A stretch of 64,000 nt of DNA from Albidovulum marisflavi (GTDB taxonomy: Bacteria; Pseudomonadota; Alphaproteobacteria; Rhodobacterales; Rhodobacteraceae), in NCBI RefSeq assembly GCF_025751435.1, contig NZ_JAOWKY010000001.1:1224001-1288000 (forward strand). The letters run 5' to 3'. This document shows, in pieces, positions 11,327 to 22,833 of this stretch. The stretch's first letter is position 1. Every line of letters begins with the position of its first letter. Under the pieces are notes generated by a model, which saw only the letters and a program-made list of their open reading frames with translations, did no database searches and was not told the origin of the DNA. Both the position numbers and the translations under genes were made by a program.

Positions 11327-12022
11327 CTAGACCTCGACCGGTTCGGGAACGATAAAGTTGCGCTGGATGTCCACGAACAGATCGCCCGAAAGGTCCGTGC
11401 GCGTCTGGGCCCAGTCCTCCCCATCCCGGACCGCGTCGTGAAGGGCGCGCTGCGCCACGAATCTTTGCAGGATCTCGTCCGAGGCGACCGTGATCCAGCC
11501 AAAGGTCAACTGGTCGCCGGCGGCGTCGATCAAGCGCAGTTCCGCGCCCGCTTGCAGGATATTTCCTGGCCGGGTCTGCAAAACCACCAGCTTCACCGTC
11601 TCGATCGCGACATCGTCAAGGCCCGCGTCCGCGATGACGATCTTCTCTCGGACCGCGGGCCATCCGAATGTAAGCCTGGCCTTCAGGGCGCGCCCGATGT
11701 CGCGCGCGGCCTCGCCCGCCTTGTCGCCGTAGGCCAGCGCGAAGTCGTCGGCCGCCTTTGCGATTTCGGCATCCCACTGGGCAAGCGCCGCGATCGGGCG
11801 CGCAGAGATCCAGATCCCGGCCTTGCCGTCAAGGTAGTTGAAATCGGGTTCCGGCCTGAATTCGGTCGCGCAGCTTGAACAGGGTTTCACCTGAAAGCGC
11901 TGCTCTAGGATGGCGGTCTTCAGGTCTGGGCGCCGGTCGGCATTGACGCTCTGGAAGATGTCCATCTCGTTTGCCGTCCCACAGTTGGGACAGGCCACGG
12001 ACAGTGTGGTAAACATCGACAT
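11327..12022 (-). CDS. CpXC-domain zinc-knuckle protein
   Basis: 231 residues. The N-terminus matches the CpXC domain: CPNCG at C11/C14 and CSSC at C48/C51 separated by an SVNADRRPDLK spacer, a four-cysteine zinc-binding layout typical of that family. The rest (FGWPAVREKIVIADAGLDD, LVVLQTRPGNILQAG) is a long alpha/beta extension without a recognised domain. CpXC proteins have no agreed function. It is the last gene of a three-gene minus-strand cluster with a large HEIGH protein (20 bases upstream) and a repeat protein; the tight spacing suggests a shared transcript. Confidence 0.8.
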   Translation of the reverse strand: MSMFTTLSVACPNCGTANEMDIFQSVNADRRPDLKTAILEQRFQVKPCSSCATEFRPEPDFNYLDGKAGIWISARPIAALAQWDAEIAKAADDFALAYGDKAGEAARDIGRALKARLTFGWPAVREKIVIADAGLDDVAIETVKLVVLQTRPGNILQAGAELRLIDAAGDQLTFGWITVASDEILQRFVAQRALHDAVRDGEDWAQTRTDLSGDLFVDIQRNFIVPEPVEV

Positions 12023-12042
12023 GGCGTGATCCTTTCACTGTG

Positions 12043-14940
12043 TCAGAGGGTCGACAGCCACTTGGCAGCCGGATGCTTGGGGTTGAGCTTGCCGGTGTGA
12101 TAGGCCGCATACAGTTCCGAGAACCACTCGCCCGGTGCTCGGAACTGGTAGCCTGTAACGCCTTGCCTGCGCGAACCTGCGTCATACGAAACCCACGTGT
12201 CACCGTAGGCTTCATGGTAGACCTTTCCGCCTATCGCATAGTCGCTTGAGGCACGCTTGTTGTCCCAGGGTTTGCTGCCAGTCGACATTGCCTTGTACCA
12301 GTTGTCCACATTCTGCTTCCGAGCGCTCCAGGCGGTTGCGCCGTTGGGATTCTCCTTCAGTTCTTCCGGCATCTCCGGATCTTCTGGTGCACCACCCGAG
12401 ATCAAGCGCTCGACGTAGAACTCGTCGTACTTGTATTCGGCGGCTACCGCCTTCGCGATTGGCCTGATGTCACCTCCATATTCGGTCCAGCCACCGAATG
12501 CCGCATTACCTGCCTTGCCCTTCATGAACCCCTTCGCATCATCCACCGCGTGTCCGATCTCATGCAGGGTCGTCCAGGTTCCGTAGGTTGGCTGAGGCTT
12601 TTCGGTGTCGGGAACGCAAACGCAGTCAGGCTCGATGTCCTCGAGCTTGTCGGGGTCGCTGAGGCTTGAGCCCCAGTCCATGGCGCCACCCAAGCCCATT
12701 ACGACCTGGCGCTTGCCGGACTGGTAGAAGGAATCGTAAACACCGACTTGTTCGACCTCATCAAAACGAAGAAGGCTTTCATTGAGCTTGGTGTGAGCAT
12801 CAGGAACTTTGGTCATCATCTTGTAATATTTAAGCAAATTTGGCGCGGGCCCGGTAAGTGACGCCTTGCCGCCACCGGCTTCCATTTGCGCCTTGGTATC
12901 GAATACTCCAACCTCCATGTCGAAGCGGGCGCCCAGCAAGGCCATCATGACTTCCTGCGTCACGTCGTTCGGGCCAAGCTGCTCGATCAGACCATCCAGC
13001 ATTCGCTGGCCGTTTGGTTGCGCGATGATGTCCAGAACTTCCTGTTTGGTCGGCGGCGTCCCGGCCTTTGCCTTCGCAGCGATGTTGATGCTGGCGACCT
13101 CTGCCATCACACCGTCAAGCGCACCCTTGGCCTTTGCGGGTTCAAGCCCCTTGGAAAACTCCTCTGCCCGAAGCATCGCGTCGTTGATGCGGCCCTGGGC
13201 CCCCGGCTTGTCGGGGAAGTTCTGCTTCAGCGCCTTGTCTGCTTCGGATTTCACCTCGGCGCGACGGATGAGATAGACCTCCTGGCCGTCCGCCAACATG
13301 CGCGCGCGGTCCAGTGCGGCCTCTGCCCGGTCCAGCATTCCCGTCGCGGCGTCATTGCCCTTTTCGGCGGCTTCGCGGCCCTGTTTGGCGGTTTCCAACG
13401 CGGTCTTCAGGCTGGTTTCGGCGTACTTCGCCTGGCCGTGCGTGTCGCGCAGGTTTGTTATCCGATCGATCAGCCTGTCCGCGCGCGTCATCAGCGCGTC
13501 GACGATATCGGCCAGTCGCCGGGCGCCGCTGGCCAGTTCGGCCAGTTCCTTAAGATGACTGCGGGCGGTATCGTCGTCAAAGTTTTCAACGCCCTCGTCG
13601 GCAGCCTTGTGGCGCCGCTTCAAGTCCGCAATCGCTTCGGCGATCTGGGCCGCGCGGGGATGCGCCTCGAGCGACTTTATCAGCGCCTCGGCCTGAGAGA
13701 TGATCCGTTCGGGCGGCTCGCTGCCGACGGCTTCCTCAAGCCTCGTGAACGGAGCACCCGCCGCCGCGTTCTCGGCGGCGGCCTTGCACATGTCGGGAAT
13801 GAGATCCAGGCGCGCGACGGCTTGGGCGTATTTGCGAACGCCGGCAAGCGCCTCTGCCTGCGCGAAGACCGACCGCGCCTCGGCGATCTGACCAAGGGCG
13901 AACTTGCCCTGAGGATGGCTGGCAAGCGCGCTGATCGCTTCACTTGCCGTCTTGGCCGCAGCCTCGAAGTCAAGGTAGCCTTGCGCGAATGGCAACTCTG
14001 CCACCGCGCGTTTCTTCAGGTCCTGCATGATGTGCCATGGTGTGATGAAGTCGCGCGCAGCGACAGCGGTCGCAGCCTCCCCCTGTCGGCGCACGATTTC
14101 GGCGCATTCTTCCTCGACCCCTGGACAACGCTTGGCCAGAAGCTTGTTGATCTCGGTTTCGGCGGCGGCCTTGACGAGTTCGTAGTCGGCGCGGTTGTCC
14201 AGAAGTCGCTTGGCCGCGTCGACCTTGCCCCAGGCGATGCTGATGTTGCTGCGCGCCACCGAGATGGAGTGCTCATCAAGCTGCTGCTCTGCAAGGGCGA
14301 CAAGCCTTTCGACCTCTTGCCGTTCGGTACTGACGAAGGCGTCGTTGATCTCGGGATAGCGATTCCGGACCATCTGCGGCCAGCCCTTGTACTTGTTGTA
14401 TTCGGCCATGTAGGCGTTCGAAACCTGCGTGACCCTTGTCTCTTCGCCAAGGATGAAGGCGTGCGCCGAACGCACCGCGTCAAAGTCGGGAGGGGTTCGC
14501 GCGCCGGCATTGCGCAACTCGACCAGACGCGCTTCGGCCTTCTGACGGTGAATGACGGTGCCCCTGAGCGCCTGCATCCGTGTCACCGCCTGCTGCGCCT
14601 CGGTTTGCAACCGGTTGACGTAGGTCTGGCCCAAGGTCTCCAATGCCGTGCTCAGCCGGCCTATTTCCTGCGTCGCGGCGGCGGCGTTCAGCTGCTTCTT
14701 GTCCTTGTCGACGGAGTCGCGCGCCGTATCGAACGATTTGACGATGGATTTCGTGCCGATAAAGGGCGGGTAGTTCTGGATCTTCAGAGAGAATTGCGCG
14801 CAGGCGTCCTGGTACGCCTGGTATTCATCCGACATCCGGTCCTTGTCGACCTGACTGGTCCCCTTTCCGAAAAGCCCGCCGGACTTGAAGTACTTCTTGA
14901 CGAATTTCTGGGCTTTGGGGTCAAGCGATGAAAACGGCAT
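12043..14940 (-). CDS. 965-residue helical protein with C-terminal HEIGH zincin-like domain
   Basis: I do not recognise this protein as a named family. Residues about 1-650 are almost entirely charged, alanine-rich amphipathic helix, as in coiled-coil or helical-repeat scaffolds. The last 300 residues are globular and contain HEIGH at 793-797 preceded by YGTWTTL, and a second acidic element APGEWFSELYAAY (E942 or E938) near the end. HExxH plus a downstream glutamate in an EW/ELYAAY helix is the zinc-site layout of gluzincin-like peptidases. There is no signal peptide or membrane segment, so it is cytosolic or exported by a dedicated route. Start ATG 14940 follows GAGGAGATATAG. It is flanked by the CpXC and 421-residue genes on the same strand. 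Confidence 0.75.
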   Translation of the reverse strand: MPFSSLDPKAQKFVKKYFKSGGLFGKGTSQVDKDRMSDEYQAYQDACAQFSLKIQNYPPFIGTKSIVKSFDTARDSVDKDKKQLNAAAATQEIGRLSTALETLGQTYVNRLQTEAQQAVTRMQALRGTVIHRQKAEARLVELRNAGARTPPDFDAVRSAHAFILGEETRVTQVSNAYMAEYNKYKGWPQMVRNRYPEINDAFVSTERQEVERLVALAEQQLDEHSISVARSNISIAWGKVDAAKRLLDNRADYELVKAAAETEINKLLAKRCPGVEEECAEIVRRQGEAATAVAARDFITPWHIMQDLKKRAVAELPFAQGYLDFEAAAKTASEAISALASHPQGKFALGQIAEARSVFAQAEALAGVRKYAQAVARLDLIPDMCKAAAENAAAGAPFTRLEEAVGSEPPERIISQAEALIKSLEAHPRAAQIAEAIADLKRRHKAADEGVENFDDDTARSHLKELAELASGARRLADIVDALMTRADRLIDRITNLRDTHGQAKYAETSLKTALETAKQGREAAEKGNDAATGMLDRAEAALDRARMLADGQEVYLIRRAEVKSEADKALKQNFPDKPGAQGRINDAMLRAEEFSKGLEPAKAKGALDGVMAEVASINIAAKAKAGTPPTKQEVLDIIAQPNGQRMLDGLIEQLGPNDVTQEVMMALLGARFDMEVGVFDTKAQMEAGGGKASLTGPAPNLLKYYKMMTKVPDAHTKLNESLLRFDEVEQVGVYDSFYQSGKRQVVMGLGGAMDWGSSLSDPDKLEDIEPDCVCVPDTEKPQPTYGTWTTLHEIGHAVDDAKGFMKGKAGNAAFGGWTEYGGDIRPIAKAVAAEYKYDEFYVERLISGGAPEDPEMPEELKENPNGATAWSARKQNVDNWYKAMSTGSKPWDNKRASSDYAIGGKVYHEAYGDTWVSYDAGSRRQGVTGYQFRAPGEWFSELYAAYHTGKLNPKHPAAKWLSTL

Positions 14941-14993
14941 CTATATCTCCTCGGGGCGCTGAGGTCTGAAGGGGGTAAGTTGGCGGATGCGTC

Positions 14994-16259
14994 CTAGCCA
15001 AGGACCTTTGCGATCGCATCCAATGCCTTGCGCGCACTTGCGGCGACGGCAACCTGAACAAAGCCGTTGTCGTCATCCACTTCGGCGAAGAAGTCGCTTT
15101 CAAGCGCGCTACTGTAGTCCCGAATTGCGGCGCGCGCCTCGACCTTCAGCGCGCTGCGCTGATCGCCCTCGGGGGTGTTGGTGATCCGGTCAAGCACATC
15201 CTCGAGCCGCGCGTCGAAGACATCAAGCCGCTTGCGCAGTTCGCTTGCCTCGGCCGCGATGGGGGCGAGTTCCGGGTCGCCAGCGCAGACGCTGACGATC
15301 GCGGATTCCAGTTTCGCCATTTCCTTCATCATGGTGGACCTGGTGGCGCCCCAGAGCACGCGGGACTTCTGGAAGGGCACGACATCCTTGGGGACCTCGC
15401 GCTCGGTGCCTGATCCGCCCTTGCTGATCGCGGCCTCGAGCGCTGACTTCAGCCTGGTGGCGATCTGAAGCGCCGCCGCGAAGTCGCCCGCCTCTGCCTT
15501 CTCGGTCGCCATGGCCCAGGCGGCACTCAGCTGGCTGCGGTTCTCGGGGTTCAGCGCCATGGCCTTTTCGTATAGCTGGCCGATCGCGCCCGCGACCGCG
15601 CCCCAACGCTTGGCGTCCGGACCCTCGGGCGCGTTGCTTTCCGGGGCCTGCTGTTGCGGTTGCTGGGCGCTCAGCAATGGGCGCAGCTTCGCCGCGATGG
15701 CCAGCGCTTCCTGATGGTTGCCGGCTTCCGCCGCCTCAAGGGCCCGGTTCCATGCGGCCTCGATCTGGGGGGCTTTTTCATGTCCCGCATTCAGCGCCCG
15801 TTCGACCATCGCCGTCATGGCCGGTGCGATCTTGGCCCAGTTCTGCGCCTCGGGGCTTTGGGCCTCGGCGGTTTCCACCTGATCCTGATCGCCCTCTTCC
15901 TCCGGCTCCCCGTCGTCGTCCGCCACATTCCCGTCGGCGTCAAGCGCCACGATCTTCAGCTTCAGGTCAAGCCCGGCAAGGAACTTGCGAAGGTTCTTCG
16001 ACATGCCGGGCAGGATGTCGCCCTGGCATTGCAGCATCATCTTCTTGCCCTTGATTTCGACCGTGCCGAACGTGACCTTCGGCGTCTCGCCCTCCTTCTT
16101 GGCCTGGCGGGCAAGAATCGCGGGCTCCTTCATGCGGTGAAGCACCATCACGGTGCCCTCGGGTTTCTTTCCAAGGCACACGCCGAACCCCAAGGCCCGC
16201 TTTCGCGCAACGGGAACCATCGACTTGAGTTCTTCGGTCGCTTCGGGGGTCATTGGCAT
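14994..16259 (-). CDS. 421-residue protein with duplicated 57-residue helical repeat
   Basis: Unrecognised protein, first gene of the CpXC/HEIGH cluster. Residues 1-107 form an alpha/beta domain (FGVCLGKKPEGTVMVLHR, KVTFGTVEIKGKKMML). An acidic linker follows (DDDGEPEEEGDQDQ). Residues 140-196 and 218-274 are an ungapped duplication with 22 of 57 identical positions by my own alignment (shared W, AAW, AEAG and AL-IA positions), resembling a TPR-like two-helix unit. A helical C-terminal domain (KSRVLWGATRSTMMKEMAKL to the end) ends the protein. Start 16259 follows AAGAGG. The partner is presumably the HEIGH protein 53 bases downstream. Confidence 0.72.
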   Translation of the reverse strand: MPMTPEATEELKSMVPVARKRALGFGVCLGKKPEGTVMVLHRMKEPAILARQAKKEGETPKVTFGTVEIKGKKMMLQCQGDILPGMSKNLRKFLAGLDLKLKIVALDADGNVADDDGEPEEEGDQDQVETAEAQSPEAQNWAKIAPAMTAMVERALNAGHEKAPQIEAAWNRALEAAEAGNHQEALAIAAKLRPLLSAQQPQQQAPESNAPEGPDAKRWGAVAGAIGQLYEKAMALNPENRSQLSAAWAMATEKAEAGDFAAALQIATRLKSALEAAISKGGSGTEREVPKDVVPFQKSRVLWGATRSTMMKEMAKLESAIVSVCAGDPELAPIAAEASELRKRLDVFDARLEDVLDRITNTPEGDQRSALKVEARAAIRDYSSALESDFFAEVDDDNGFVQVAVAASARKALDAIAKVLG

Positions 16260-17491: not shown

Positions 17492-18679
17492 ATGACTGCT
17501 TCTGCCAAACCGCTTCCCGCGCCGCATCTGGGCGAACCCTACCTGCTGACGCCCGGTCCGCTGACCACCGCCTTTTCAACCAAGGAGGCGATGCTGAAAG
17601 ACTGGGGGTCTTGGGACGCCGATTTCCGGGCGATGACCAGGTCGCTTTGCGATCAGCTGGTTGCGCTTGCTGGCGACAGCCGGGGCGAGTTCGTTTGCGT
17701 GCCGATGCAGGGCTCCGGTTCGTTCTCGGTCGAGGCGATGCTGGGCACCTTCGTCCCGCGGGAGGGCAAGGCGCTGGTCCTTGCAAACGGCGCCTACGGG
17801 CTGCGGGCGGCCGAAACCATGCGCTACCTTGGCCGCGCCTACACGCTGATCGACAAGGGCGACTACATGCCGCCGCGGGGCGATGAGGTCGCGGCGGAGC
17901 TGGACGCCGACCCCGCGATCACCCATGTCGTCGCGATCCACTGCGAAACGTCCAGCGGCATCCTGAACCCGGTCGCCGAGATTTCAGAGGCGGTTTATTC
18001 ACGCGGGCGCAAGCTGCTGATCGACTCCATGTCGGCCTTCGGGGCGATCGACCTGGACGTGAACCGGATCCGGTACGAGGCGATGGTGTCCTCGGCCAAC
18101 AAGTGCATCGAAGGTGTGCCGGGCTTCGGCTTCGTTGTCGCCCGCAGGTCCGAGCTTGAGGCTGCGAAGGGCAACAGCCATTCGCTCGCGCTCGACCTGC
18201 ACGCGCAGTGGGCCTACATGGAAAAGACCGGCCAGTGGCGCTATACGCCGCCGACCCACGTCGTCGCGGCCTTCCTTGAGGCACTGCGCCTGCACGCGGA
18301 AGAAGGCGGCGTTCCCGCCCGCGGCGCGCGCTACACCCGCAACCGCGACGTGATGGTTGACGGGATGCGGGGCTTGGGGTTCGAAACCCTTCTGAAGGAC
18401 CGCTGGCTGTCCCCGATCATCGTCACGTTCTTCTGCCCCGCCGATCCGAACTTCGTCTTTTCGCGCTTCTATGAGTTGATGAAGGCCAAGGGCTTCATCA
18501 TCTATCCCGGCAAGCTGACGGTCGTGGACAGCTTCCGTGTCGGCTGTATCGGGCGGATGGACGAACACGTGATGCGCAAGGTGGTTCAGGCCGCGAAGGA
18601 AGCATTGGCCGAAATGGGCGTCGCTTCTGCCGCCCCGCCCGAAGCCGCCATCGCCGAACGCGCCAGGCTTGCCGCTTGA
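17492..18679 (+). CDS. phnW: 2-aminoethylphosphonate:pyruvate aminotransferase
   Basis: Transfers the amino group of 2-aminoethylphosphonate to pyruvate, giving phosphonoacetaldehyde and alanine. 395-residue class V aminotransferase starting with the PhnW-typical LLTPGPLTT; phosphate-contact region [15 protein letters not shown] aspartate in [16 protein letters not shown] lysine K204 in [17 protein letters not shown]-terminal [10 protein letters not shown] and FRVGCIGRM. It is followed by phnA, phnY and a PbfA-like gene on the same strand with short gaps, so this is the first step of the PhnWAY hydrolytic route rather than the PhnWX route (no phnX here). Confidence 0.95.
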
Positions 18680-18711
18680 GCGGCCCCGAGACACTGACGG
18701 AAGGACCGAAG

Positions 18712-19962
18712 ATGAACATGATCAACCGCGCCGCCGTGACCGCCAACGGCCGCGTTTATCCCTGGCCCAAGGTGCCCGCCATCGCGATCTGCCTGGACGG
18801 ATGCGAACCTGAATACCTGGACGTGGCCATCTCCGAAGGGCTGATGCCCACGTTGAAGCGCATTCGTGAAACCGGCACCGAGCGTCTGGCGCACTCGGTC
18901 ATTCCGTCCTTCACGAACCCAAACAACCTGTCGATCGCCACGGGGCGCCCGCCCGCGGTGCACGGGATCTGCGGAAACTACCTGTATGAGCCGGAAACGG
19001 GGCAAGAGGTGATGATGAACGACGTGCGCTTCCTGCGCGCGCCGACCGTATTCGCCCAGTTCTACGATGCCGGCGCCCGAGTGGCCGTTGTCACCGCCAA
19101 GGACAAGCTTCGCGCGCTTCTGGGCGCGGGGCTGAAGTTCGACGAAGATCGCGCCATCGCCTTTTCCTCGGAGCGCGCCGACACCACGACGAAGGCCGAA
19201 CACGGGATCGACAACGCCAGTGCCTGGCTGGGCCGCCCGGTGCCGGAGGTCTATTCGGCCGACCTGTCGGAATTCGTCTTCGCCGCTGGCGTCAAGCTTC
19301 TGAAGGAATGGAAGCCCGACGTGATGTACCTGTCCACGACCGACTACATCCAGCACAAGTTCGCGCCTGACGAACAGGGGGCGAAGGATTTCTACAGGAT
19401 GTTCGACGGCTACCTGGCCCAGCTTGACGCGCTTGGCGCGGCGATCGTGGTGACGGCCGACCATGGCATGAAGCCCAAGCACAACGCCGACGGCACACCT
19501 GCCGTGATCTACGTCCAGGACCTTCTGGACGATTGGCTCGGAAAGGACGCGGCGCGCGTGATCCTGCCCATCACGGATCCCTATGTCGTCCATCACGGCG
19601 CACTCGGCTCCTTTGCCACCGCCTATCTGCCCGAGGGCGCGGACAGGGCGGACATCATGGCGCGGCTTTCGGCGCGGGATGAGCTGATCCTTGTCGTGGA
19701 CCGGGACGAGGCGGTGACGCGTTTCGAACTGCCGGCCGACCGGATCGGCGACATCGTCATGATCTCGGGCGAGAACATGACCATCGGCACTTCGGCCCAC
19801 CGCCACGACCTGGCGGCGCTGAAGGAGCCGCTGCGCAGCCATGGCGGGCTGACCGAGCAGGAGGTGCCCTTCATCGTCAATCGCAAGGTCGACTTGCCGG
19901 ACGCGCCGGACCTTCGCAATTTCGACGCCTTCCTTTACGCCTGCACGGCGGCGGCGCTTTGA
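18712..19962 (+). CDS. phnA: Phosphonoacetate hydrolase
   Basis: Cleaves the C-P bond of phosphonoacetate to acetate and phosphate. Member of the alkaline-phosphatase superfamily with two metal sites: [12 protein letters not shown] (D29), nucleophile threonine in [16 protein letters not shown] (T68), [13 protein letters not shown] and [11 protein letters not shown], and a late histidine in [10 protein letters not shown]. The start at 18712 gives 416 residues and follows GGAAGGACCGAAG. Its stop overlaps the start region of phnY. The N-terminal [19 protein letters not shown] lacks a signal peptide, so it is cytoplasmic, as known PhnA enzymes are. Confidence 0.94.
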
Positions 19963-19979
19963 TCATGAAGGACCAGGAC

Positions 19980-21428
19980 ATGACGACGATCGAGGTCCGG
20001 CACGAAGGCATGCGGATCGGGGGCGAAAAGGTCTTTACCGACCGCGTGATCGAGGTCCGCTATCCCTACACCGATGAGGTGGTGGGAACGGTCCCGGCGG
20101 GCACGGCCGAACATGCCCGCCGCGCCTTCGAGATCGCCGCCAGCTATCGCGCGACGCTTTCGCGCTACGAGCGCAGCCAGATCCTCAAGCGCGCGGGCGA
20201 GTTGATCGGAGAGCGGCGCGAGTACCTGGCAACGTGGCTTGTGCTTGAGCTTGGCATCTGCTGGCAGCATGCGATCTATGAGACCAAGCGTGCGCAGGAT
20301 GTCTATACCTTCGCCGCAGCGCAGGCGCTGCAAGACGACGGGCAGATCTTTTCCTGCGACCTGACGCACAACGGCAAGGACCGCAAGATCTACACCAAGC
20401 GCGAGCCAGTCCGGGCGATCAGCGCGATCACGCCCTTCAACCATCCGCTGAACATGGTCAGCCACAAGATCGCGCCCTCGATCGCGACCAACAACTGCAT
20501 GGTCTGCAAGCCGACCGAGCTGACGCCGCTGACCGCCATCGCGCTGGCAGACATTCTGTATGAGGCGGGTCTTCCGCCGCAGATGTTCCAGGTCGTCACC
20601 GGCTGGCCGCAGGACATCGGCGACGAGATGATCACAAATGAGCACATCGACATCATCACCTTCACCGGTGGCGTGCCAGTCGGCAAGATGATCGCGGACA
20701 AGGGCGTCTACAAGCGCCAGGCGCTGGAACTGGGCGGCAACGATCCCCTGATCGTGCTGAACGATCTGGACGACGCCGACCTTGAAAAGGCCGCGACGAT
20801 CGCCGTGGCCGGAGCCACGGGCAATTCGGGGCAGCGCTGCACGGCGGTCAAGCGCATCCTGGTGCAGGAAAGCGTCGCCGACCGCTTCGTGCCGATGGTG
20901 CTGGAAAAGGCCAGGAAGATCCGCTTCGGCGACCCGATGGACCCCGCGACCGAGCTTGGCTGCGTGATCCATGCCAAGGCTGCGGAGCTTTTCGAGAAGC
21001 GCGTCTACATGGCGGCCGAGCAGGGCGCCAAGGTGCTCTACGATCCCGGCCGCAAGGGTGCGCTTCTGCCGCCGATCGTGGTTGACCATGTGCCCCATGA
21101 CAGCGAACTGGTGATGGAGGAAACCTTCGGCCCCATCGTGCCCATCGTGCGTGTGCCCGACGACGATGCCGCGGTCATGCGGATATCGAACGGAACGCCC
21201 TTCGGGCTGTCCTCGGGCGTGTGCACGAACGACTTCCGCCGCATGCAGGCCTATATCGAGGGGTTGAATGTGGGTACCGTGAACATCTGGGAGCAGCCCG
21301 GATACCGGATCGAGACCTCGCCCTTCGGCGGCATCAAGGACTCGGGCAACGGCGTCAAGGAAGGTGTCAGCGAGGCCATGAAGTTCTTCACCAACGTGAA
21401 GACCTATTCGCTTCCCTGGCCGCGCTGA
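19980..21428 (+). CDS. phnY: Phosphonoacetaldehyde dehydrogenase
   Basis: NAD-dependent aldehyde dehydrogenase that oxidises phosphonoacetaldehyde to phosphonoacetate, linking PhnW (and PbfA) to PhnA. 482 residues from the ATG at 19980, which has AAGGA seven bases upstream; an earlier ATG at 19965 lacks a ribosome-binding site. Catalytic residues are visible: Asn in [10 protein letters not shown], Glu in [11 protein letters not shown] (E250) and Cys in [11 protein letters not shown] (C287). Substrate assignment rests on its position between phnA and pbfA as well as family similarity. Confidence 0.92.
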
Positions 21429-21483
21429 AAGGCTTGGGTCGCGCAGGTCCCGGGCCGGGATGGACAAGAGGAAGGGGCGGGGT

Positions 21484-22833
21484 GTGATCACGCATACCGA
21501 GGGCGAGTCTAACACGTCGCAAGCGCGCCGCGCCTGGGCAGAGAAGCACCCGGATGCGGCGACGCGCGCGCTTCTGGCGCGCGACGCGGGCGCCTTCCTG
21601 CACCAGTCGCTGTCCTCCCCCTGCGTTTCGACGATCGCGAAGGCGGATGGGATCTGGATCGAGGATACCGCCGGGCGGCGCTACATGGATTTCCATGGCA
21701 ACTCGGTTCATCACATCGGCTACAGCCATCCTCGCGTCGTCGCCGCGATCAAGGCGCAACTGGATGAATTGAGCTTCGCGCCGCGCCGCTTCACGAACGA
21801 GGTGTCGGTCGAACTGGCCGAGCGTCTGGGGCAGATCGCGCCGGGCGATCTGGGCAAGGTGCTGTTTACGACCGGAGGCTCGGACGCGAACGAGGTCGCC
21901 TTGCGGCTCGCGCGCGCGGCCACCGGGCGTTTCAAGACGGTCAGCTTCTGGGACGCATTCCACGGCGCGGGTTTCGGCGCCTCAAGCGTCGGCGGCGAGG
22001 CGACGTTCCGGTCGCATATCGCGGGTCCCCTCTTGCCGGGGGCAGAACATGTCGCGCCATTCAACTGCTACCGCTGCGCCTACGGGCATCCCGGACCGGC
22101 GGCTTGCGGACTGGCCTGTGCGAAAATGGTCGAGTTCGTCCTTGAGCGCGAGGGCGATGTGGCCGCGGTGATCGCCGAGCCGATGCGGGCGGTTCCCACG
22201 CTTCCGCCGGCGGGCTTCTGGAAGCATGTCCGCGAAGCCTGCAACCGGCACGGCGCGCTTCTGATCATGGACGAGATCCCCACGGGGCTGGGCAAGACGG
22301 GCCGCATGTTCGCGTTCGAGCATGACGACATCGTTCCGGACATCGTGACCCTGGGCAAGGCGCTTGGCGGCGCCATCCTGCCCATCGCGGCGGTCGTCGC
22401 GCGGCGCGACCTGGACCTGTGCGGCGATTTCGCCATCGGCCACTACACGCATGAAAAGAACCCCGTGACGGCGCGCGCCGCTCTGGAAACGCTTGCCGTC
22501 ATTCAGGAAGAGGGCCTGGTCGAGAGGGCTGCGGCGCTTGGCTGTCACGCGCTTCAGCGGCTTGCCGATATGGTCGGGGATTGCCCAATCGTCGGCGACA
22601 TTCGGGGGCGCGGGCTCATGTTCGGGGTTGAGATCGTCGAGGACCGTTCGTTCAAGGCCGCGGGGAAGGCCGCCGCCGAGCGCATCTACTATCGTTGTCT
22701 GGAGGCGGGGCTAAGCTTCAAGATCAGCGCCGGCTGCGTGCTGACGCTGTCGCCGCCGCTGACGATCGCAAGGCAGGACCTTGATCGCGCGCTCGACATC
22801 GTCGCGCAAGCGATCGCGGACGAGGCCGCCTGA
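21484..22833 (+). CDS. pbfA: PbfA-like class III PLP enzyme, (R)-1-hydroxy-2-aminoethylphosphonate ammonia-lyase
   Basis: Class III aminotransferase-fold protein of about 449 residues. Cofactor residues: DE in LLIMDEIPTGLGKTGRMF and the PLP lysine in DIVTLGKALGGAI (K292). Proteins of this kind next to phnW-phnA-phnY or phnW-phnX are known as PbfA and eliminate ammonia from (R)-1-hydroxy-AEP to give phosphonoacetaldehyde, feeding the same PhnY/PhnA steps. A GTG at 21484 with AGAGGAAGG upstream is preferred; ATG 21460 is the alternative start but lacks a ribosome-binding site. The lyase assignment is from context and resemblance; an aminotransferase on another aminophosphonate is possible. Confidence 0.82.
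   Translation: MITHTEGESNTSQARRAWAEKHPDAATRALLARDAGAFLHQSLSSPCVSTIAKADGIWIEDTAGRRYMDFHGNSVHHIGYSHPRVVAAIKAQLDELSFAPRRFTNEVSVELAERLGQIAPGDLGKVLFTTGGSDANEVALRLARAATGRFKTVSFWDAFHGAGFGASSVGGEATFRSHIAGPLLPGAEHVAPFNCYRCAYGHPGPAACGLACAKMVEFVLEREGDVAAVIAEPMRAVPTLPPAGFWKHVREACNRHGALLIMDEIPTGLGKTGRMFAFEHDDIVPDIVTLGKALGGAILPIAAVVARRDLDLCGDFAIGHYTHEKNPVTARAALETLAVIQEEGLVERAAALGCHALQRLADMVGDCPIVGDIRGRGLMFGVEIVEDRSFKAAGKAAAERIYYRCLEAGLSFKISAGCVLTLSPPLTIARQDLDRALDIVAQAIADEAA

Follow-up and report, generated by a model that had tools for sequence, protein, structure and literature searches.

Polymorphic effectors of the type VI secretion system (T6SS) that carry a marker domain, such as MIX, FIX, RIX or WHIX, are already known as a kind. 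RIX operons comprise consecutive genes for three proteins, namely a secreted adaptor, an effector as its cargo and an immunity protein; a T6SS is present in 97.7% of the RIX host genomes, and the authors speculate on further family-specific T6SS secretion domains (PMC10435454). The T6SS effector Tre1 is contained in the structure 6DRH (PMC6829252), and Tri1, its immunity protein, has a glycohydrolase domain (PMC10763514). In roseobacters, a giant protein with VipA and VipB domains has been named TssCL, and the T6SS of the reference genomes were said in 2022 to be without any described function (PMC9515649). Here we compare with these systems a trio of adjacent genes from Albidovulum marisflavi, located in a window of 64,000 nucleotides (contig NZ_JAOWKY010000001.1, positions 1,224,001 to 1,288,000), the whole stretch of DNA that was analysed. 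We consider it likely that the trio is an antibacterial effector operon, composed of adaptor, effector and immunity genes, for a T6SS whose genes lie on a different contig of this genome.

The trio comprises three open reading frames (ORFs), all on the minus strand, with intergenic gaps of 53 and 20 bases. In reading order these are gene 1 (14994..16259 of the window), encoding REP, an N-domain protein of 421 residues with BLAST similarity to T6SS-cluster proteins and a putative adaptor; gene 2 (12043..14940), encoding the HEIGH protein of 965 residues, for which relatives were found and which is a putative toxin (effector); and gene 3 (11327..12022), encoding the CpXC protein of 231 residues, a putative immunity protein in view of its PF14353 match and its position after HEIGH. 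A first-pass annotation of the same DNA had described three minus-strand genes with gaps of 20 and 53 bases, namely a zinc-type CpXC gene, a gene for a long protein with a zincin-like site and a gene for a protein with duplicated TPR-like units and an acidic linker. The ORFs lie where it had placed them, and each of the protein features was recovered as detailed below.

The window proteins share 69-83% identity with those of Defluviimonas sp. WL0075 (locus L009) and D. sediminis (L010). The dN/dS of the window genes relative to these two was 0.10-0.21, the nine pairwise values among the three genomes ranged from 0.10 to 0.26, and third codon positions held most of the changes between the window and the two relatives. 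Chance ORFs in GC-rich DNA are ruled out by the low dN/dS together with this third-position bias, and we conclude that the three genes are genuine and that purifying selection acts on them. Promoter-like sites at the trio were not above chance (one found versus 0.8 expected).

CpXC matched PF14353 with an E-value of 5.6e-21 (75.2 bits versus a curated cut-off of 25.4), and the four cysteines of its zinc-ribbon-like part (Cys 11, 14, 48 and 51; 11870..11992) were invariant in nine aligned sequences. It is encoded by the next gene, on the same strand, after the zincin in 16 of 16 loci, a count which leaves out the Streptomyces locus (L031) and repeats already counted (L011-L013, L025 and hit H3) and which includes close relatives such as three Defluviimonas and several Leisingera plasmids. 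The upstream arrangement varies among these loci. N-domain and HEIGH form one ORF of 1844-2001 residues in nine of them (L014, L015, L017, L018, L021, L026, L027, L028 and L030) and are separate neighbouring genes in four (the window, L009, L010 and L029). At L019 and L020 the N-protein gene is 3.3 kb from CpXC, on the opposite strand and inside a T6SS cluster, and L016 is cut by a contig end.

In profile searches of 196 genomes of the order, a sample from which none was dropped, HEIGH and CpXC were found in the same eight genomes. The same six plasmid records carry both, a seventh HEIGH record (Streptomyces) having no CpXC match. N-domain loci of other modules were found with the N-domain profile (A2) and gave no match with either the zincin profile (A1) or the CpXC profile (A3); CpXC therefore accompanies the zincin rather than the N-domain itself. 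This one-to-one lock, retained through fusion and fission upstream, is the pattern of an effector with its immunity gene, and CpXC is the probable antidote. A single search of the open-licence PMC literature showed no function or immunity role of CpXC; in the accessible part of the CoCoNuT paper, CPxC denotes a zinc motif only.

The HEIGH protein begins with an Ala/Glu/Lys-rich, probably helical stalk (residues 1-615; 13096..14940), as indicated by its composition; in an N-terminal alignment its first ~25 residues are similar to those of gene-2 proteins at other N-domain loci. The last ~350 residues form the C-terminal zincin domain (residues 616-965, the span of profile A1; 12046..13095), with the patterns H-E-x-G-H-x-V-D-D and E-W-F-S-E-x-Y invariant in 11 aligned sequences. 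The predicted zinc-binding motif HEIGH (residues 793-797; 12550..12564) has both histidines and the glutamate invariant in this alignment, as are E, W, F, S, E and Y of the downstream EWFSELY (residues 938-944; 12109..12129), which contains the probable third zinc ligand. An HExxH followed by a glutamate ligand is what characterises the lethal-factor-like zincins (ATLF, M34). When the zincin profile was compared with the PDB at E-values up to 10, three lethal factor chains were the only hits, the best at E 0.2 and over the zinc motif. We read this part of the protein as a remote lethal-factor-like zincin, a predicted peptidase.

The same zincin was found in a plasmid protein of Streptomyces anulatus (profile E 2.6e-27), with an ATLF match at E 0.002, below the cut-off. 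This protein of 406 residues (L031:11533-12753) has no N-domain or CpXC match and is encoded near a HINT-domain polymorphic toxin. Its zincin is preceded by an N-terminal LQRTVGN stretch, which we take to recall a cargo motif of extracellular contractile injection systems (eCIS), and the window protein might by extension be cargo of an injection system of the eCIS/PVC type instead of a T6SS. A survey of polymorphic toxins lists lethal-factor-like peptidases as toxin domains, primarily with PVC-type delivery (PMC3482391). The window protein has a different start, however, and in Alphaproteobacteria the family members are associated with the N-domain, itself near tssC in most of the genomes concerned (see below; no search for eCIS genes was made). 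We regard delivery by an eCIS as very unlikely.

REP starts with the N-domain (residues 1-120; 15900..16259; alignment A2), a region of ~110 residues common to other toxin-like modules and to T6SS clusters and without a Pfam or NCBIfam match. An acidic linker, judged by eye, separates it from two 64-residue TPR-like units (residues 133-196, 15672..15863, and residues 211-274, 15438..15629). The units are identical at 24 of 64 positions, and their alignment score of 116 compares with a maximum of 39 in 1000 shuffles. A conserved C-terminal domain (~residues 287-421; 14997..15401) is shared, by alignment, with N-proteins of T6SS clusters and of orphan loci. In BLAST, REP resembles at both ends the longer products of a gene beside tssA in T6SS clusters, for example the L070 protein, with identities of 39% (132 residues, C end) and 41% (92 residues, N end). 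By this similarity REP is a putative adaptor. No Pfam or NCBIfam family above cut-off accounts for HEIGH or REP, and the scores of PHROG and PADLOC families were unconvincing. Weak matches to THOC7 (E 0.0063), HAT_PRP39 (0.022), phrog_2772 (0.0044) and Cas13d (0.0017-0.033), all located in helical stretches, were treated as probable chance hits.

In the order sample, the connection between N-domain and type VI secretion was followed with profile A2 and, for the sheath, with VipB. A2 matched at 36 places in 13 of the 196 genomes (all but nine of these places were read with long flanks, and six of the nine are copies near tssC known by coordinates only), and in this analysis the N-domain was seen in Alphaproteobacteria only. 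VipB was found in 56 genomes, among them all 13 with the N-domain. In fifteen genomes VipB matches a second time, within a frame of 1000 residues or more; these include 13 of 13 N-domain genomes (Fisher 1.6e-18), and 10 of 10 N-domain genera are among the 12 of 87 genera with a giant sheath frame (Fisher 1.6e-11); it counts against the weight of both values that the cut of 1000 residues was chosen after the data had been seen and that related genomes are not independent. Initially, 21 genomes whose second VipB match scored low had been grouped (P 3e-15); as short and long frames were mixed in that group, it was replaced by the one given here. The giant protein is called TssCL by its domains in the window's genome and TssCL-like, from frame length, in the other 12 N-domain genomes.

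One N-domain gene is located 2.02-2.12 kb from tssC in 11 of the 13 N-domain genomes. On two annotated plasmids this gene and tssA are divergent, and after it come a small hypothetical gene, MotA/TolQ/ExbB, a pair of ExbD genes and DUF4384. In the genomes G186 and G036 HEIGH and CpXC directly adjoin the T6SS cluster, after the DUF4384 gene (with profiles for G186 only). The sets of MotA/ExbB, ExbD, ExbD and DUF4384 that accompany the T6SS clusters (L088:21316-24322 and L089:21307-24305) resemble a proton-driven accessory of the machine. In the window's genome, contig C3 encodes TssA, TssB, TssC, TssCL, Hcp, VgrG, PAAR, MotA/ExbB, ExbD, DUF4384, TssH, TssK, TssL and TssF. Its TssCL (L066:10020-14669; the cluster is also covered by L067) has 1549 residues, with two VipA stretches (best 10-160) and VipB at 1143-1427. 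Besides all 13 genomes of the order sample with the N-domain, G253, G200 and G201 have a T6SS.

The regular position of the N-protein gene near tssC or tssA and, where annotated, near the ExbB/ExbD/DUF4384 set could also be that of an accessory or structural gene. N-protein and stalk would then be parts of the TssCL-type apparatus, such as a scaffold, a length control or an energised ExbB/ExbD module, the zincin would trim or remodel the machine or the cell wall in assembly, and CpXC would be its chaperone; a scaffold role would suit long helical proteins. However, five of the 13 N-domain genomes lack HEIGH and still have a TssCL-like T6SS, HEIGH is far from the T6SS in other genomes, and the C-terminal parts linked to the N-domain vary and are accompanied by different small partners. 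An accessory set appears unlikely to us.

This variety of partners is also found in the window's genome itself. Contig C5 (L068) encodes an N-protein of 451 residues, then a protein of 924 residues and an ADP-ribosylglycohydrolase of 349 residues (PF03747, E 2.7e-58; best PDB match 6dre/6drh, E 3.8e-81). The C end of the 924-residue protein gave an ADP-ribosyltransferase match below the cut-off (PF03496, E 0.2) and no PDB match; since its partner is an ADP-ribosylglycohydrolase, it is likely to be an ADP-ribosyltransferase toxin. Glycohydrolase immunity proteins are stated to go strictly with R-S-E transferases (PMC3482391). Elsewhere, L083 encodes a fused protein of 1673 residues with an M15-like peptidase end (E 8.6e-4, below the cut-off; no sensible PDB match), L085 and L110 have in common a C-terminal part, a partner of ~125 residues and an N-protein, L081 and L082 encode fused proteins, each with a partner of 148 residues (41% identity between the two), and L074 encodes a protein of 1138 residues with a partner of 163 residues. 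The L085/L110 and L081/L082 sets thus occur in two genomes each, and the loci L072, L080, L084 and L086 were left unassigned.

At six further loci (L069, L071, L075, L076, L079 and L087) an N-protein is accompanied by two large proteins of ~770-1230 and 870-1050 residues, the second being related among the six. Seven of these twelve large proteins were scanned and showed no Pfam family above cut-off. On the Qingshengfaniella plasmid, genes for a type I secretion ATPase and an HlyD adaptor (L087:6530-9843) directly precede the N-domain locus. The N-domain, fused or separate, was found with zincin, ADP-ribosyltransferase-like, M15-like and other C-terminal ends, as a marker domain would be. Apart from the zincin motif, the toxin assignments of these ends are weak and their toxicity is putative. 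We are somewhat inclined to regard the N-domain as an undescribed alphaproteobacterial T6SS loading domain, mainly for the TssCL-type machine, which would serve large helical toxins as a fused part or as a partner and would have spread toxin-immunity pairs, zincin-CpXC among them.

In both Defluviimonas loci (L009 and L010) the trio, in unchanged order, adjoins the same GntR-type regulator. This GntR gene was present in 21 of the 22 genomes of the genus (E up to 1e-60), and its GntR-HAD-UbiH neighbourhood is evidently old. The trio adjoins it only in the window's genome (G000), G200 and G201. At the other 18 GntR loci, several of which are cut by contig ends, neither the trio nor LysR was found within up to 1.5 kb of flank, and a fourth genus member, G199, carries the fused gene form on a different contig. 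The zincin module is patchy, with four of 22 genomes. Its absence beside the old GntR neighbourhood in most genus members makes the module look acquired, perhaps twice in the genus. At 17492-22833 of the window, on the plus strand, are genes of phosphonate catabolism, all above NCBIfam cut-offs: PhnW (2-aminoethylphosphonate transaminase), PhnA (phosphonoacetate hydrolase), PhnY (phosphonoacetaldehyde dehydrogenase) and a PbfA-like ammonia-lyase.

On a wider scale, the window's genome was the only one of 398 from the phylum that A1 matched; among 385 class genomes there were three, with G253 and, as a weak broken match, G390 besides the window's own. Outside the class its only match was a Streptomyces plasmid record, from the plasmid search. 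With A2, the window's genome and G253 were the two that matched among 327 of the class. Zincin copies occur on plasmids, in seven HEIGH records. Among viral contigs no relative of A1, A2 or A3 was confirmed, and neither phage origin nor membership of a prophage module was retained.

The patchy distribution and the plasmid copies, together with the toxin-antitoxin-like pairing, would also suit an anti-phage or abortive-infection module, in which a peptidase restrained by CpXC is released on infection. PADLOC, however, gave no match to CpXC or REP and only the weak Cas13d matches to the stalk, and the association found is with T6SS genes; the chance of such a module seems to us slimmer still than that of eCIS delivery. 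Least probable among the readings considered is an ordinary intracellular operon for proteolysis or stress response, with no link to secretion. No signal peptide is evident by eye and regulatory and metabolic genes flank the trio, as such an operon would have it. The trio is, however, patchy and plasmid-borne, its CpXC is locked to the zincin, and its N-domain is common to T6SS clusters and to the glycohydrolase module.

According to our preferred reading of the trio as an effector operon for a T6SS, REP would dock its cargo on the T6SS through the N-domain, and its TPR-like and C-terminal parts would hold the HEIGH stalk. By analogy with the RIX operons, adaptor and delivered effector are the most likely roles of these two proteins. 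The HEIGH protein would be secreted as cargo, and its zinc metallopeptidase end would cleave one or more cytoplasmic proteins of the target cell. CpXC would serve in the cytoplasm as the immunity protein, protecting the producer and its kin by blocking the peptidase. Since inspection by eye shows no signal sequence in CpXC, a cytoplasmic site of action is expected for the peptidase, and the dedicated immunity gene points to bacterial targets. As N-domain and HEIGH are one polypeptide in many relatives, delivery part and toxin could work in cis when fused or in trans when separate.

The first-pass annotation had grouped the three genes as one possible system and had proposed to look for their togetherness in relatives and for contractile-injection genes. 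HEIGH and CpXC are indeed adjacent in 16 of 16 loci, with the N-domain fused in nine of them and encoded by a neighbouring gene in four, and contractile-injection genes were found in the form of the T6SS. Of the three functions it had offered, a toxin with its partners is favoured, and nothing was found for a stress sensor. The grouping thus stands; the notion of a stand-alone system gives way to that of one member of a larger, T6SS-tied set of modules, and CpXC, previously regarded as a small zinc protein, would be more than that.

Several observations weigh against an effector operon for a T6SS. The identified neighbours of the window trio are regulators and metabolic genes and not vgrG, hcp or PAAR. 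An N-domain gene was not detectable in the T6SS cluster of the window's genome, which would leave the orphan loci to supply that part. The genome G253 has the trio, six N-domain matches and a T6SS, but its only VipB match is in a 495-residue frame, at least 35 kb from the N-domain genes on that contig. In G199 a 7.4-kb contig, from a 90-contig assembly with 4% contamination, holds the fused gene together with CpXC, and this genome gave no VipB match. The giant protein occurs without an N-domain match in G064 and G076. Whereas immunity genes often occur by themselves, the 196 order genomes showed no CpXC of this subfamily that lacked HEIGH. The sequence evidence for placing the zincin in the lethal-factor family is weak, and the window protein had no ATLF (PF07737) match in Pfam at E-values up to 1. 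Finally, the structure models of the zincin (pLDDT 40.9) and of the N-domain (pLDDT 37.6), each built from three alignment rows, are of very low confidence.

In the open-licence PMC literature, as far as its text was accessible, we found no description of the N-domain, of the zincin-CpXC pair or of a split, very large cargo, and the accessible part of a paper on T6SS on plasmids (PMC13098142) names no such N-domain. If our reading is true, the N-domain is a family-specific T6SS secretion domain and a sequence handle for effectors of the TssCL-type machine, the CpXC zinc protein family gains a role, and the question arises how a T6SS can carry toxins as long as 900-2000 residues.

A comparison with the described systems places the trio as follows. 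With Tre1/Tri1 the connection is through the sister locus L068, where the last gene encodes a glycohydrolase with 6dre/6drh as its closest match of known structure; unlike in that pair, the L068 glycohydrolase is preceded by an N-protein and the 924-residue protein, and the window trio has a zincin and CpXC. With the anthrax-lethal-factor-like domains (Tox-ALFMPTase; ATLF, PF07737) the HEIGH protein has in common HExGHAVDD, followed in the window protein by E-W-F-x-E ~145 residues on, and weak profile matches. The similarity is very remote, the carrier protein and the partner gene are different, and a role in bacterial competition is what we propose here. The TssCL-bearing roseobacter T6SS has a counterpart in the window's genome, and a TssCL-like giant occurs in 13 of 13 order N-domain genomes, whereas the accessible text of PMC9515649 names no N-domain or effector family. 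RIX, as described in the available part of its report, is an arginine-rich motif of ~55 residues from Vibrionaceae and Moritellaceae. The N-domain is set apart from it by a length of ~110 residues, by its occurrence here in Alphaproteobacteria only, by being encoded also inside T6SS clusters and by a far longer cargo (965 residues, or 1844-2001 when fused). What the trio shares with the RIX adaptors and polymorphic T6SS effectors is an N-terminal domain common to diverse toxins, an adaptor-effector-immunity arrangement and the occurrence of orphan loci.

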